A DNA stretch of 41,493 nt, from contig RDDZ01000150.1 of the NCBI GenBank assembly GCA_003852775.1, positions 1 to 41,493 on the forward strand, in the 5' to 3' direction. Positions 855-41,493 of the stretch are shown here, piece by piece. The translations under genes and the position numbers were made by a program. Below the pieces are notes generated by a model. That model was not told the DNA's origin and did no database searches. It saw nothing but the letters and a program-made list of their open reading frames with translations. The stretch is from Microbacteriaceae bacterium. GTDB lineage: Bacteria; Actinomycetota; Actinomycetes; Actinomycetales; Microbacteriaceae. Position 1 is the first letter of the stretch, and the number at the start of each line of letters is the position of its first letter.

Positions 855-1916
855 TCAGGCCTGGATGTGGGTGATGGGGAGAGTCGAGTCGGCGCCCACG
901 TCGAGGCTCGACGGCGCGTGGCCCGCCGCGATGAGCTGGGCGGCGAGCGACGCGATCATGGCGCCGTTGTCGGTGCAGAGCGAGAGCGGGGGGATGCGTA
1001 GCGCGACGCCCGCCTCCGCGCACCGCTCGACCGCGACCTCCCGCAGCCGGCGGTTCGCGACGACGCCGCCGCCGAGCAGCAGGCGCGGAACGCCGAGGTC
1101 CCGGCACGCGGCGAGGGCCTTCGTGAGCAGCACGTCGACGACCGCCTCGCGGAAGCCGGCAGCGACATCCGCGGCGGGCACCGGGCCGCCGGATGCGCGC
1201 GCGGCCTCGACGTGGCGCGCGACGGCGGTCTTGAGGCCCGAGAACGAGAAGTCGTAGCGGTGCCGCTCGAGGTCCTTCGCGGCGGTGAGCCCGCGCGGGA
1301 AGCGGATGGCCGCAGGGTCGCCGTCGGCAGCGGCCCGGTCGATCTCGGGACCGCCGGGGTAGGGCAGCCCGAGGAGTCGCGCGACCTTGTCGAAGGCCTC
1401 CCCCGCGGCGTCGTCGATCGTCTCGCCGAGCAGCTCGACGTCGGAGACGAGGTCGCGCACGAGCAGGAGCGAGGTGTGGCCGCCCGAGACGAGCAGGGCG
1501 ATCGTCGGCAGCTCGAGCTCGCCCTCGCCGACGAGGGGGTCGTGGCCCAGGAGGTCGGCGCCCACGTGCCCCACGAGGTGGTTGACGGCGTAGAACGGCT
1601 TGCCGGTCGCAAGCGCGAGCGCCTTCGCGGCGCCGACACCGACCATGAGGGCGCCCGCGAGCCCGGGCCCGCTCGTGACGGCGACCGCGTCGAGGTCGTC
1701 GAGCGCGACGCCCGCCGTGCGCAGCGCCTCCTGGATCGCGGGGCTCAGCGCCTCGAGGTGGGCGCGCGCCGCGATCTCCGGCACGACGCCCCCGTAGCGG
1801 GCGTGCTCGTCCATCGAGCTCGCGATGACGTTTGCGAGCAGCTCGGTGCCGCGCACGATGCCGACACCCGTCTCGTCGCAGCTCGTCTCGATCCCGAGCA
1901 CGAGCGGTCCGCTCAT
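855..1916 (-). CDS. tsaD: tRNA N6-adenosine threonylcarbamoyltransferase TsaD
   Basis: TsaD transfers the threonylcarbamoyl group from threonylcarbamoyl-AMP to A37 of ANN-decoding tRNAs, working with TsaB and TsaE in the cytoplasm. The 353-residue protein begins [17 protein letters not shown], the classical Kae1/TsaD N-terminus. It has the metal-binding HLVGH motif (H113, H117), the nucleotide-binding SGGHTSL stretch, and a C-terminal [11 protein letters not shown] followed by CTDNGAM. Length matches the family. ATG 1916 overlaps the rimI stop by four bases (ATGA), so the two are translationally coupled. It is the last gene of the run glmS-acpS-alr-tsaE-tsaB-rimI-tsaD. Both partners, tsaB and tsaE, are in the same run, so the identification is firm. 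Confidence 0.97.
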
Positions 1917-2368
1917 GACAGCACCGCCTTCATGACGACGGCGTCGACGCCGTCGGGCTGGTAGTACCGCGGGCGCACGGCGATGCGCTCGAATCCGCGG
2001 CTCGCGTAGAGCGCCTCGGCCCCGGGGTTGTCGGCGCGCACCTCGAGGAAGACCTCGAAGGCCGCGCGGGCGCGCGCCTCCGCGAGGAGGGCGTCGAGGA
2101 GCGCCGCGCCGATCCCCTGGCGGCGGGCGGGCTCGGCGACGGCGATGGTCTGGATGTCGCCCTGCCCCGAGCCGCGCGGGGCGAGGAGGCCCGCGTAGCC
2201 GATGACGGCGCCCGCGTCGTCGACGGCCACGAGGTAGTGGGTGTGGGCGCCCGCGAGCTCGGCGGCGATGAGCTCGCGCGACCACGCGTCGGTCGGGAAG
2301 GTGGCGCGCTCGATCGCGTCGATCGCGTCGAGATCGGATGCCGTGGCGGCGCGCATGGTCCAGCTCAC
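1913..2368 (-). CDS. rimI: Ribosomal-protein-alanine N-acetyltransferase RimI (GNAT)
   Basis: The 151-residue protein has a single GNAT fold. The acetyl-CoA binding motif A is visible as [14 protein letters not shown], followed by [14 protein letters not shown], typical of RimI. RimI acetylates the N-terminus of ribosomal protein S18 in E. coli; in actinobacteria its targets may be wider. The start is GTG 2368, whose last two bases form the tsaB TGA stop (GTGA overlap). An internal ATG at 2356 would also keep the domain. Position between tsaB and tsaD is the usual actinobacterial arrangement and supports RimI over another GNAT. Confidence 0.9.
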
Positions 2369-2976
2369 GGCGTGACCCGCTTCGGCGTCGAGAGCGTGAC
2401 GTCGGGCGCGCGCAGGTAGACCGGCTCGGCCGGGCCGGCCGGAAGACCCGCGTCGTGACGGGCGAGGGCGAGGATGCCGAGCAGCCCCGCGTCGATCGTC
2501 GCGGCGTCGACGCGCACGTAACCGGCGAGGGAGGTGACGGTGTCGAAATCGGCGACCGGCGTGAGCGACGGGCCCTCGATGCGGACGGGGAGCCCGTCGG
2601 AGCCCGGGGCCGCATACCGCGACCAGGCGTACTCGCGGCGGCGCGCATCCGTCACGACGAGCACGCGCTCGGTGCGTCCGTAGGCGACCGCGTCGTGGGA
2701 GACGACGGGCAGCACGGGGCGGCCGATGCCCAGGGCGAAGGCCCGCGCGGCTGCGATGCCGACCCGCAGGCCCGTGAACGGCCCGGGCCCCATGCCCACC
2801 GCGACGCCCTCGAGCTCGCGCGGCTCGACGCCCGCCTCCGCGAGCACGTCGCGGATGAACGCGCCGATGACCTCCGCGTGCCCGCGGGTGTCGGCCGTCG
2901 TGCGCTCGGCCCGGGTGCCCTCGCGGGTGACGACGGCGACGCTCGTCCCCGTCGAGGTGTCGATCGCCAGCAGCAC
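2365..2976 (-). CDS. tsaB: tRNA threonylcarbamoyladenosine biosynthesis protein TsaB
   Basis: TsaB is the non-catalytic ASKHA-fold partner that dimerises with TsaD during t6A synthesis. The 203-residue product starts [15 protein letters not shown] after a GTG start at 2976 and carries the signature [13 protein letters not shown], matching the TsaB family in sequence and length. Compared with TsaD it lacks the metal-binding HxxxH motif, as expected. A gap of nine bases separates it from the tsaE stop, the only non-overlapping junction in this seven-gene run. The upstream ribosome site is weak, so translation may depend on coupling to tsaE. Confidence 0.95.
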
Positions 2977-2985
2977 CGGACAAGC

Positions 2986-3471
2986 CTACGTCGGCGGGGC
3001 GGGCCGGAGCTCGACGCCCTCCCAGCGGGGGCCGTATGCCGCGACCCGCACGTGCCGCGGGGCGTCGTCGGCCTCCGGGTCGCCGCCGATCGGCCGATCG
3101 ATGTCGACCTCGATCCACGAGTCGACCACGCCGTCGATCTTGCCCGCACCCCACTCGACGACCGTGATCGAGCCCTCGAAGTCGAGGTCGAGGTCCTCCA
3201 CCTCGGCCGCCGTCGCGAGCCGGTACGCGTCGACGTGCACGAGGGGGACGCCGGATGCGGTGGGGTGCGTGCGCGCGAGCACGAACGTCGGGCTCGTCAC
3301 CTGGCCGCGCGCGCCGAGGGCCTCGCCGATGCCGCGCGTGAGCGTCGTCTTGCCGGCGCCGAGCTCGCCGTTCAGCAGCACGAGGTCGCCCGCGCGGAGC
3401 TGGGACGCGAGGTAGGCGCCGAGCGCCTCCATGGCCTCCGCGTCCGGCACCTCGAACCGGTGCTCGCTCAC
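2986..3471 (-). CDS. tsaE: tRNA threonylcarbamoyladenosine biosynthesis ATPase TsaE
   Basis: TsaE is the P-loop ATPase that resets the TsaBD complex during t6A formation. The 161-residue protein has the Walker A GELGAGKT at residues 35-42, then TSPTFVLARTH and LVHVDAYRL, and a later ITVVEWGAGK in place of the family's VEWPE-type motif. The start is GTG 3471, which shares four bases with the alr stop (GTGA). It ends with a TAG stop, which matters for judging the in-frame TAG codons seen in rpsG. Short C-terminal extensions like this one are common in actinobacterial TsaE. Confidence 0.95.
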   Translation of the reverse strand: MSEHRFEVPDAEAMEALGAYLASQLRAGDLVLLNGELGAGKTTLTRGIGEALGARGQVTSPTFVLARTHPTASGVPLVHVDAYRLATAAEVEDLDLDFEGSITVVEWGAGKIDGVVDSWIEVDIDRPIGGDPEADDAPRHVRVAAYGPRWEGVELRPAPPT

Positions 3472-4562
3472 GTCGTCACCCGCGCGACGCGGGGTCCGAT
3501 GCGCGTCACGAGCTCGTAGCCGATCGTGCCGCTCGCGGCCGCGAGCGCGTCGACACCGGGTTCGCCCTCGGCGGGGTCGCCCCACAGCACGACCGGGTCT
3601 CCCGGCGCGACGGGCGCGTCGCCCACGTCGACGACGAACTGGTCCATCGCGATGCGGCCGACCTGGGGGAACACGGAGTCGCCGATGCGCACGCGCAGCA
3701 TGTCGGAGGCCGAGCGCGGGATGCCGTCCGCGTAGCCGAGGGGCACGAGCGCGAGCGTCGTCTCCCCGGGGGTGCGGTGCACGTAGCCGTAGGACACACC
3801 CGTCCCGGCGGGCACCCGGCGCACCGCCGCGACCCGCGAGACGAGGCGCATGACGGGGCGGAGGCCGAGCGAGGCCGGGTCGACGGACGGATCGGGCGAC
3901 AGCCCGTACATCGCGATCCCGACGCGCACCATGTCGAACCGCGCCCCGGGCATCGTGAGCGCGGCGAGGCTCGCGGCGATGTGCCGCAGCTCGGGACGCA
4001 GGCCCGCGTCCTCGGCGAGCGCCACGGCGTCCGCGAAGGCCGCGCACTGCGCCGCGTCGTCGTCGGGGGAGGTGCCCGAGAGGTGGCTCATGAGGCCGCG
4101 CACGCGCAGCCGACCGGCGCGCTCGAGCTCGGCCGCGCGCGTGAGGACCTCGGCGGTCTCGGCGGGCGCGAAGCCGTTGCGGCTGAGCCCCGTGTCGAGC
4201 TTGAGGTGCACGTCCGCGCCCGCGGCGGCGGCCGCCTCGAGCTGGCCGCGCGTGGAGACCCCGACGTCGACGCCCGCCTCGACCGCGGCCGTGTAGTCGG
4301 GCTCGGCCGCATGCAGCCACGCGAGCAGGGGGGCGCGGATGCCGGCCTCGCGCAGCGCGAGCGCCTCGCGCAGGTCGGCGACCCCGAGCCAGTCGGCGCC
4401 CGCCTCGACCGCCGTGCGGGCGACGGGCAGCGCGCCGTGCCCGTAGGCGTCGGCCTTCACGACAGCGAGCACACGCGCGGGGGCGACGATCCCGCGCACG
4501 ATCTCGAGGTTGTGCGCGAGGGCGTCGAGCCGGATGCGGGCCTCCCGCAGCGGCGCGGTCAC
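3468..4562 (-). CDS. alr: Alanine racemase
   Basis: Alr is a PLP enzyme that interconverts L- and D-alanine, supplying D-Ala for peptidoglycan. The 364-residue protein shows the PLP-lysine motif AVVKADAYGHG (K36) in the N-terminal TIM barrel, KLDTGLSRNG in mid-barrel, and GVSYGY (Y258), which should hold the second catalytic base. The C-terminal beta domain contains the substrate-site stretch GRIAMDQFVVD. GTG 4562 overlaps the acpS stop by four bases. The acpS-alr-tsaE order is also seen in other actinobacteria such as Streptomyces. All expected catalytic residues are present, so it should be active. Confidence 0.97.
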   Translation of the reverse strand: MTAPLREARIRLDALAHNLEIVRGIVAPARVLAVVKADAYGHGALPVARTAVEAGADWLGVADLREALALREAGIRAPLLAWLHAAEPDYTAAVEAGVDVGVSTRGQLEAAAAAGADVHLKLDTGLSRNGFAPAETAEVLTRAAELERAGRLRVRGLMSHLSGTSPDDDAAQCAAFADAVALAEDAGLRPELRHIAASLAALTMPGARFDMVRVGIAMYGLSPDPSVDPASLGLRPVMRLVSRVAAVRRVPAGTGVSYGYVHRTPGETTLALVPLGYADGIPRSASDMLRVRIGDSVFPQVGRIAMDQFVVDVGDAPVAPGDPVVLWGDPAEGEPGVDALAAASGTIGYELVTRIGPRVARVTT

Positions 4563-25750: not shown

Positions 25751-26500
25751 CTACTTGACGGAGCCGCCGGCGGCGACGATCTTCTGCTCCGCGGAGCTCG
25801 AGACCTTGTCGACCGCAACGTTCAGCTTAACCGTAATCTCGCCGGTGCCGAGAACCTTGACCTTCTCGTTCTTGCGGACGGCACCCTTGGCGACCAGGTC
25901 GCTGATGGTGACGTCGCCGCCCTGCGGGTAGAGCTCGGCGAGGCGGTCCAGGTTCACGACCTGGTACTCGACACGGAACGGGTTCTTGAAGCCGCGGAGC
26001 TTCGGGGCGCGCATGACCTGGTTCAGGTTGCCGCCCTCGAGGCCGACGCGCACCTGGTAGCGGGCCTTGGTGCCCTTGGTGCCGCGACCGGCGGTCTTGC
26101 CCTTCGAGCCCTCACCGCGACCCACGCGGGTCTTGGCCTTCTTCGCACCCTCGGCGGGGCGGAGGTGGTGGGCCTTGAGCACCTGCGGGCGCGACGCGAC
26201 GTCGTCCGACTTCTTGGGAGCAGCCTTCTTGGCGGCGGGCTTGGCCTCGGCCTTGGGGGCCTCGGCGTCGCTCTTCGCAGCGGCGGCCTTGGGAGCGGCG
26301 GCCTTGGCGGGCGCCTTCTTCTCGGCGGCCGGCTTGTCCGCAGCAGCCTTCGAGGCGGTCGCCTTGGGGGCGGCCTTCTCGGCGGCGGGCTTCTTCTCCG
26401 CAGCGGGCTTCTTCTCGGCAGCGGCCTTCGGAGCAGCCTTGGCCGGAGCCTTCTTCTCGGCGGCGGGCTTCTCCGCCGCCGTCTTCTTCTCGTCAGCCAT
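25751..26500 (-). CDS. rplO: 50S ribosomal protein L15 with a very long Lys/Ala-rich N-terminal extension
   Basis: The L15 core spans about residues 108-249 ([36 protein letters not shown], then [18 protein letters not shown]). Residues 1-107 are an extension of Lys, Ala, Pro and Glu with repeated AEKKPA/APKAA units, resembling histone H1-like tails. Bacterial L15 is normally about 150 residues, so this nearly doubles the protein. The start ATG 26500 overlaps the rpmD stop by one base (TAATG), and no later start fits that coupling, so the extension is probably translated. It may bind rRNA or DNA non-specifically. Confidence 0.95.
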
Positions 26501-35152: not shown

Positions 35153-35461
35153 CTAGAGCTTGATCTCGATGTTGACGTCGGCGGGCAGGTCGAGGCGCAT
35201 GAGCGAGTCGACGGCCTTGGGCGTCGGGTCGATGATGTCGATGAGGCGCTTGTGGGTGCGCTTCTCGAAGTGCTCGCGGCTGTCCTTGTACTTGTGCGGG
35301 GAACGGATCACGACGACCACGTTCTTCTCCGTCGGGAGCGGCACAGGGCCGACGACGGTCGCGCCCGCACGGGTCACGGTGTCGACGATCTTGCGCGCCG
35401 ATGCATCGAGGCCGGCGTGGTCGTACGACTTCAGCCGGATGCGGATCTTCTGTCCCGCCAT
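35153..35461 (-). CDS. rpsJ: 30S ribosomal protein S10
   Basis: S10 is a 30S head protein that also works in NusB-NusE transcription antitermination. The 102-residue protein [29 protein letters not shown] and [23 protein letters not shown] is fully conserved. ATG 35461 has AAGGAAGAG upstream. It is the first gene of the 22-gene S10-spc-secY-adk operon and follows a long untranslated leader. It ends with a TAG stop. Confidence 0.98.
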
Positions 35462-39223: not shown

Positions 39224-41338
39224 TCACTCGCCCTTGCTCTTCTGCACGATCTCGTCGGCCACGGCCTTGGGGACCTCGGCGTAGGAGTCGAACTGCATGG
39301 AGTAGACGGCACGTCCGGAGGTCTTCGACCGAAGGTCGCCGACGTAGCCGAACATCTCCGACAGCGGGACGAGGGCGCGCACGACCTTGACGCCGGTCGC
39401 ATCCTCCATCGCCTGGATCTGGCCGCGCCGCGAGTTGAGGTCGCCGATGACGTCGCCCATGTACTCCTCGGGCGTACGCACCTCGACCGCCATGAGCGGC
39501 TCGAGCAGAACGGGGTTCGCCTTGCGCGCGGCCTCCTTGTAGGCCATCGAGCCGGCGATCTTGAACGCCATCTCCGAGGAGTCGACGTCGTGGGCGGCAC
39601 CGTCGACGAGCGTCGCCTTGACGCCCACCGTCGGGAAGCCGGCGAGCACACCGACCTGCATCGCGTCCTGGATGCCCGCATCGACCGAGGGGATGTACTC
39701 GCGCGGGACGCGACCGCCGGTGACGGCGTTCACGAACTCGTACGAGGTCTCGGCGGTCACCTCGAGGGGCTCGAGGGTGATCTGGACCTTGGCGAACTGA
39801 CCCGAGCCACCGGTCTGCTTCTTGTGCGTGTAGTCGTACTTCTCGACCGTCTTGCGGATGGTCTCGCGGTACGCCACCTGCGGCTTGCCGACGTTCGCCT
39901 CGACGTTGAACTCGCGCTTCATGCGGTCCACGAGGATGTCGAGGTGCAGCTCGCCCATGCCCTTGATGACCGTCTGGCCGGTCTCGATGTTCTGCTCGGT
40001 GCGGAACGTCGGGTCCTCCTCGGCGAGCTTCTGGATCGCCGTGCCGAGCTTCTCCTGGTCGGCCTTGGTCTTGGGCTCGATCGCGACCTCGATGACGGGC
40101 TCCGGGAAGGTCATCGACTCGAGGATGATCGGGTGGTTCGCGTCGCTCAGGGTGTCACCGGTCGTGGTGTCCTTGAGGCCGATGACCGCGTAGATGTGGC
40201 CCGCGGTGACCGAGGGGACCGGGATCTCCTTGTTGGCGTGCATCTGGAAGATCTTCCCGATGCGCTCCTTCTTGCCCTTGGTCGAGTTGATCACCTGGGC
40301 GCCCGACTCGAGCGTGCCCGAGTAGACGCGGATGTAGGTGAGACGACCGAAGAACGGGTGCACCGCGATCTTCGAGACGAGCGCGGCGAACGGCTCGTCG
40401 GCCGAGGCCTTGCGCTCGAGGACGACCTCGGCATCCTTGACGTCGTGACCCTGCACCGGCGGCACGTCGAGCGGGCTCGGCAGGAAGTCGATCACGGCGT
40501 CGAGCATCGGCTGCACGCCGCGGTTCTTGAACGCGGAGCCGCAGAGCACCGGGTAGACCTCGCCCGCGATCGTGAGCTTGCGGATGGCGCCCTTGATCTC
40601 GGCGACCGTGAGCTCCTCACCGCCGAGGTACTTCTCGAGAAGCTCCTCGTCGGTCTCGGCGACGGTCTCGAGCAGCGCCGCGCGGTACTCCTCGGCCTTG
40701 GCCTTGAGGTCCTCGGGGATCTCCTCGACCTCGTACTTGGCGCCCATGGTCACGTCGCCCTTGGCGTCGCCGGGCCACACGAGGGCGCGCATCTCGATCA
40801 GGTCGACGACGCCGACGAAGCTCGACTCGGCTCCGATGGGGAGCTGGATGACGAGCGGCTTGGCGCCGAGGCGGCTGATGATCGTGTCGACCGTGAAGTA
40901 GAAGTCGGCGCCGAGCTTGTCCATCTTGTTGACGAAGCAGATGCGCGGGACGTTGTACTTGTCGGCCTGACGCCACACAGTCTCGGACTGGGGCTCGACG
41001 CCCTCCTTGCCGTCGAAGACGGCGACCGCACCGTCGAGGATGCGGAGCGAGCGCTCCACCTCGACCGTGAAGTCCACGTGACCGGGGGTGTCGATGATGT
41101 TGATCTGGTTCTTGTTCCAGAAGCAGGTGACGGCGGCCGACGTGATCGTGATGCCGCGCTCCTTCTCCTGCTCCATCCAGTCGGTCGTCGACGCGCCGTC
41201 GTGCGTCTCGCCGATCTTGTGGTTCACGCCCGTGTAGAAGAGGATGCGCTCGGTCGTCGTCGTCTTGCCGGCATCGATGTGCGCCATGATGCCGATGTTG
41301 CGGACCTTCGTGAGGTCGGTGAGCACGTCTTGTGCCAC
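39224..41338 (-). CDS. fusA: Translation elongation factor EF-G
   Basis: EF-G drives ribosome translocation. The 704-residue protein has the P-loop AHIDAGKT (19-26), the switch [23 protein letters not shown] and NKMDK. These are followed by domains II to V with [12 protein letters not shown] and the C-terminal [21 protein letters not shown]. The start is GTG 41338 with AAGGA seven bases upstream. Length and all GTPase motifs are normal. It follows the rpsG stop by 83 bases. Confidence 0.98.
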
Positions 41339-41421: not shown

Positions 41422-41493
41422 TTACCAGCGGTAGTGGGCGAAGGCCTTGTTGGACTAGGCCATCTTGTGGGTGTCCTAGCGGCGCTTGACAGC
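41422..41493 (-). CDS. rpsG: 30S ribosomal protein S7, 3' end only, with two in-frame TAG codons
   Basis: The last 24 codons on the minus strand read AVKRR-stop-DTHKMA-stop-SNKAFAHYRW, ending in TAA at 41424-41422. This is the C-terminal helix of S7, which in other bacteria reads KRREDTHKMAE followed by ANRAFAHYRW or close to it. Both TAG codons (41478-41476 and 41457-41455) stand exactly where a conserved Glu (GAG) is expected, each one base from GAG. The gene runs off the window edge. S7 is essential, so sequence error near a contig end is the simplest explanation; a truncated S7 or TAG read-through are alternatives. Order rpsG-fusA-tuf is standard. Confidence 0.75.

Follow-up and report, generated by a model that had tools for sequence, protein, structure and literature searches.

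Two in-frame TAG codons near the end of rpsG in a Microbacteriaceae assembly are very probably base errors at a contig end

Introduction

UAG is reassigned to glutamine in the nuclear codes of several eukaryotes, and we know of no precedent for gene-limited decoding of amber as glutamate in a bacterial ribosomal protein. Blastocrithidia is described as reading UAR codons as glutamate (PMC12153298). For bacteria, the introduction to the Shulgina and Eddy screen of more than 250,000 genomes states that the code changes known until then all reassign UGA; the same screen lists as candidates 290 cases in which a bacterial stop codon was inferred to encode an amino acid, and reports five new codes, which concern sense codons (PMC8629427).

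Two kinds of described system bear on the locus presented here, in which TAG codons stand in frame at conserved glutamate positions of the gene for ribosomal protein S7. That feature recalls the eukaryotic reassignments, including Blastocrithidia; unlike this locus, those act genome-wide, whereas this genome has release factor 1, uses TAG as a stop elsewhere and yielded no tRNA with a CUA anticodon. The other system is the contig-end error of short-read de Bruijn assembly, which the locus resembles in that its contig stops inside the gene, 55-base overlaps occur elsewhere in the assembly, changes crowd into the last 42 bases and the remainder of the gene is missing. It departs from that system in that the other alignable ends of this assembly carry no excess of mismatches.

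The rpsG tail and its relatives

The window, the whole stretch of 41,493 nucleotides that was analysed, spans contig C125 in full, within an assembly of 158 contigs and 2.79 Mb. Its minus strand at 41422-41493 translates to AVKRR-stop-DTHKMA-stop-SNKAFAHYRW-stop, which corresponds to the final 24 codons (counting the stop) of rpsG, the gene for 30S ribosomal protein S7, interrupted where the contig ends. TAG forms both internal stops, at tail bases 16-18 (41476-41478) and 37-39 (41455-41457). A sequence-only reading had placed two in-frame TAGs in an otherwise S7-like tail, with changes at 41478 and 41457, and translation bears this out exactly. Their distance from the end of C125 is 16 and 37 bases, less than the length of a k-mer or a read. 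A single type of substitution accounts for both TAGs, and each falls precisely at a Glu codon. Downstream of the tail, on the same contig, fusA (EF-G) is intact on the minus strand at 39224-41338 (TIGR00484, 1105.9 bits).

Relatives were gathered with a C-terminus pattern that let any letter, a stop included, stand at both places; loci without the pattern were not counted. It matched 112 relative loci, amounting to 94 distinct 72-mers. At tail codon 6 the distinct relatives carry GAG (70) or GAA (24), and at codon 13 GAG (80), GAA (8), GAC (5) or GAT (1), so that aspartate takes the second place in 6 of the 94. A stop at either codon occurs in none of them; the comparison with close relatives that the earlier reading had proposed thus confirms both Glu positions. 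The tail is near-invariant across the distinct relatives and is kept by all eight congeners. More broadly, an S7 profile matches in 278 of 299 family genomes, with no internal stop among the matches listed, and the 21 genomes without a match include this one.

S7 is also unbroken in seven of the eight congeners. In the exception, G008, rpsG (C3:225700-226800) lacks 77 bases that are present in the closest congener, G002; this breaks the reading frame before the tail is reached, at a place remote from any contig end. Since S7 is expected to be essential, an error or a second copy is likely behind the broken gene of G008, and rpsG may be a trouble spot in the genus.

A contig end inside rpsG

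The Pfam S7 model found nothing in this assembly, which is rated 98.3% complete, and in a control it found S7 in 13 of 14 genomes. The gene upstream of rpsG, rpsL, lies at the last bases of another contig, C5. Neither the last 164 bases of C125 nor the last 80 bases of C5 have another match in the assembly, and when both ends are placed on G002, 429 bases between them are uncovered. The unmatched ends and the missing S7 together indicate a hole in the assembly over rpsG, both sides of which are dead ends among the contigs kept. As an observation apart, a cluster of changes marks rpsL in this genome some 173-282 bases before the right end of C5, with GNPQQRGTC and VKLANG where the eight congeners have ANPQQRGVC and VKLSNG (the comparison at DNA level covered three of the eight).

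Beyond the two changes first reported, two silent bases, 41491 (GCT) and 41452 (TCC), also differ from all eight congeners. The four bases private to this genome (tail positions 3, 16, 37 and 42) all lie within the terminal 42 bases of the contig (41452-41493), followed by none in the next 30 bases of rpsG; the first 1479 bases of fusA, the yardstick for local divergence, hold 14. On the coding strand the changes are G to T at tail positions 16 and 37 and G to C at position 42; at position 3 this genome has T, against G in seven congeners and C in G002. At the fusA rate, the probability of at least four private bases is about 7e-4 in 42 bases, a cut set after inspection of the data, and about 5e-3 in 72. 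When each congener is taken as the focal genome in turn, the tail holds between 0 and 4 private bases; congener L007 likewise has four in its 72-base tail, with no contig end nearby, three of them in one Lys-to-Arg codon. The excess of private changes at the terminus is suggestive, not overwhelming.

How contig ends of this assembly behave

The behaviour of ends was surveyed in the window and 50 more of the 158 contigs, giving 98 ends; 20 of these were wholly masked and were dropped, which left 78. Ten of the 50 contigs fetched, 1.0-2.9 kb in length, are wholly N (C23, C24, C26, C27, C29, C111, C112, C114, C118 and C119). Eight pairs of contig ends share an identical overlap of exactly 55 bases. 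Overlaps of this kind are the signature of de Bruijn assembly at k=55, and the assembly behaves accordingly; both TAGs therefore fall inside one terminal k-mer, the last 55 bases of C125 (41439-41493). SPAdes is described as picking k 21-55 by itself (PMC5481147), and from the 55-base overlaps alone we infer that the assembly was made with it.

Some ends do carry faulty sequence. Runs of at least eight C or G occur in the last 60 bases of 5 of the 78 unmasked ends, compared with 0 of 4141 interior 60-mers, so that junk evidently survives at some ends of the assembly. General decay at contig ends was tested on the nine ends, that of C125 included, that align to G002 from the first or second base, and it was not found: the last 55 bases have 44 mismatches in 494 positions and bases 56-300 have 349 in 2126, the interior figure being raised by three ends that align poorly (C5L, C7R and C18R). 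This result counts against an explanation by error. The C125 end itself has 5 mismatches to G002 in its terminal 55 bases and 11 in the 249 farther in, and its partner, the right end of C5, has none in 55.

An excess of CTAG near ends was also considered as a mark of systematic error and was dropped, because repeats can produce such an excess. CTAG occurs at 10 of 1960 positions 40-60 bases from ends, as against 38 of 144,854 at 2000-4000 (both denominators include the 20 masked ends), and it is present in bases 51-64 of 9 of the 78 ends. Four of these nine (C13R, C6R, C120L and C9R) belong to one dispersed repeat, two (C13L and C122L) match each other, and the other three only look alike. The repeat is variable, about 60 bases long and finishes in CTAG, with 12 matches in the genome, the 101-base query included; besides the four ends, copies occupy interior or end places on C97, C135, C34, C68, C134, C108 and C1, and one copy on C34 is next to a tRNA-Arg gene. 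It possibly represents mobile-element ends or a short interspersed repeat.

How TAG is read in the genome

Release factor 1 is present, as prfA scores 477.8 bits against a cut-off of 423.25 and its open frame of 361 codons has no internal stop. TAG ends rplB, rplO and the ORF at 35153-35461, names that come from NCBIfam, with S10 (rpsJ) also identified by Pfam. The sequence-only reading had listed six genes in which TAG is a normal stop, and the three that were checked, rplB, rplO and rpsJ, hold. Likewise, where a C-terminus could be aligned through to its last residue with an ORF of a relative (37 cases, among which there may be wrong-strand frames), the next codon is TGA in 25, TAG in 7 and TAA in 5. 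Genome-wide recoding is contradicted by the presence of RF1 and the use of TAG as an ordinary stop, in agreement with the argument made from the sequence at the outset. A separate remark concerns the L15 ORF of the window. This ORF (25751-26500, minus strand, 249 codons) is matched by the L15 model only over residues 111-249, and its first 110 residues are either an extension or the product of a start chosen too far upstream.

The search for an amber suppressor tRNA that had been suggested as a check yielded none, since no CUA anticodon appears among the 45 tRNA genes found (ARAGORN typing), although one could be missed in an assembly that is 98.3% complete and in which 10 of 50 sampled contigs are wholly masked. 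A recoding scan took the ORFs in 800 kb of G002, set them against 305 kb of this genome and gave 69 alignments covering 21,166 positions, after alignments shorter than 60 residues, the rpsG tail included, had been dropped. In this part of the genome TAG never stands opposite Glu. The alignments contain five internal stops, three TGA and two TAG, and both TAGs are opposite Tyr. These two were rejected as signs of recoding and taken as wrong-strand alignments opposite a likely gene: one is a plus-strand alignment at 1919-2518 of the window, facing an ORF on the minus strand (1913-3154) that encodes an acetyltransferase domain, and the other (L166) lies opposite a plus-strand frame that, judged by eye, reads like protein.

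Competing explanations

The two TAGs are very probably base errors, located where the contig gives out before a gap. C125 comes to a dead end within rpsG, and the support for its final tens of bases is probably a single read or very few. Any substitutions that these reads carried would go uncorrected and could by chance have turned two Glu codons to TAG, while the true rpsG is most likely intact and would span the 429-base gap together with the damaged end. Error in a dead-ending terminus explains the position of the TAGs, the crowding of changes and the missing gene, and nothing further is needed. Four observations count against it. Under random error, the same substitution occurring twice, both times at Glu codons, is a coincidence; half of the four private changes are silent, the pattern that genuine divergence would give; this assembly shows no general tendency to error at its contig ends; and L007 reaches four private bases in its own tail with no contig end close by.

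The main rival, which we regard as improbable, holds that the C125 end comes from a second copy of the rpsG tail, damaged or of foreign origin, whether from a pseudogene, a minor strain or a contaminating relative. The intact gene would then reside in contigs too short to keep, and the assembly would break where the copies tangle. The absence of rpsG from the assembly fits this account, as does the size of the shortest contig fetched, 1019 bases, since anything smaller may have been discarded. GCT and TCC, the silent codons that none of the eight congeners has at these places, are used by 29 and 30 of the 94 distinct relatives, a pattern to be expected of a foreign piece; TAG, in contrast, occurs there in none of those relatives. 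Further points against a second or foreign copy are the single rpsG-fusA junction in the genome, the contamination estimate of 0.05% and the intact fusA that follows on the same contig.

It is very unlikely that S7 is really shortened by 18 residues, with the first TAG a true nonsense mutation and the second the result of drift behind it. TAG is a working stop in this genome, and the length of the S7 C-terminus does vary in Escherichia coli, where K-12 strains are described as having an extension (PMC9997739). Against this stand the near-invariance of the tail in the distinct relatives and its retention by all eight congeners, even though G008 has a deletion farther upstream in the gene. Free drift also fits poorly with the distribution of the changes, since private changes are absent from the 20 bases that separate 41478 and 41457 and from the 30 that follow position 42. 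Moreover, a shortened protein requires two nonsense changes and leaves the crowding of four private changes in the last 42 bases unexplained.

Decoding of TAG as Glu in rpsG through a suppressor tRNA or a local signal fits the placement of both codons at Glu positions and a frame that runs on to TAA at the usual place, but with no CUA anticodon among the tRNAs, RF1 present, no TAG opposite Glu in the aligned positions and TAG serving as a stop, it is extremely doubtful. The sequence-only reading had named contig-end errors, a shortened S7 and suppression limited to this gene without choosing between them; errors at the contig end emerge as the best supported, a shortened S7 is disfavoured and gene-limited suppression gains no support.

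Implications

Were both ambers real and, in rpsG alone, translated at these Glu positions through read-through or a suppressor that escaped detection, amber decoding would set the level of S7 or the length of its tail, a scenario to which we give hardly any credence. If true, gene-limited amber-as-Glu in a bacterial ribosomal protein would be very surprising. As an artefact, the locus offers caution only: stops that appear in frame no farther than one k-mer from a contig end should not be counted as recoding.
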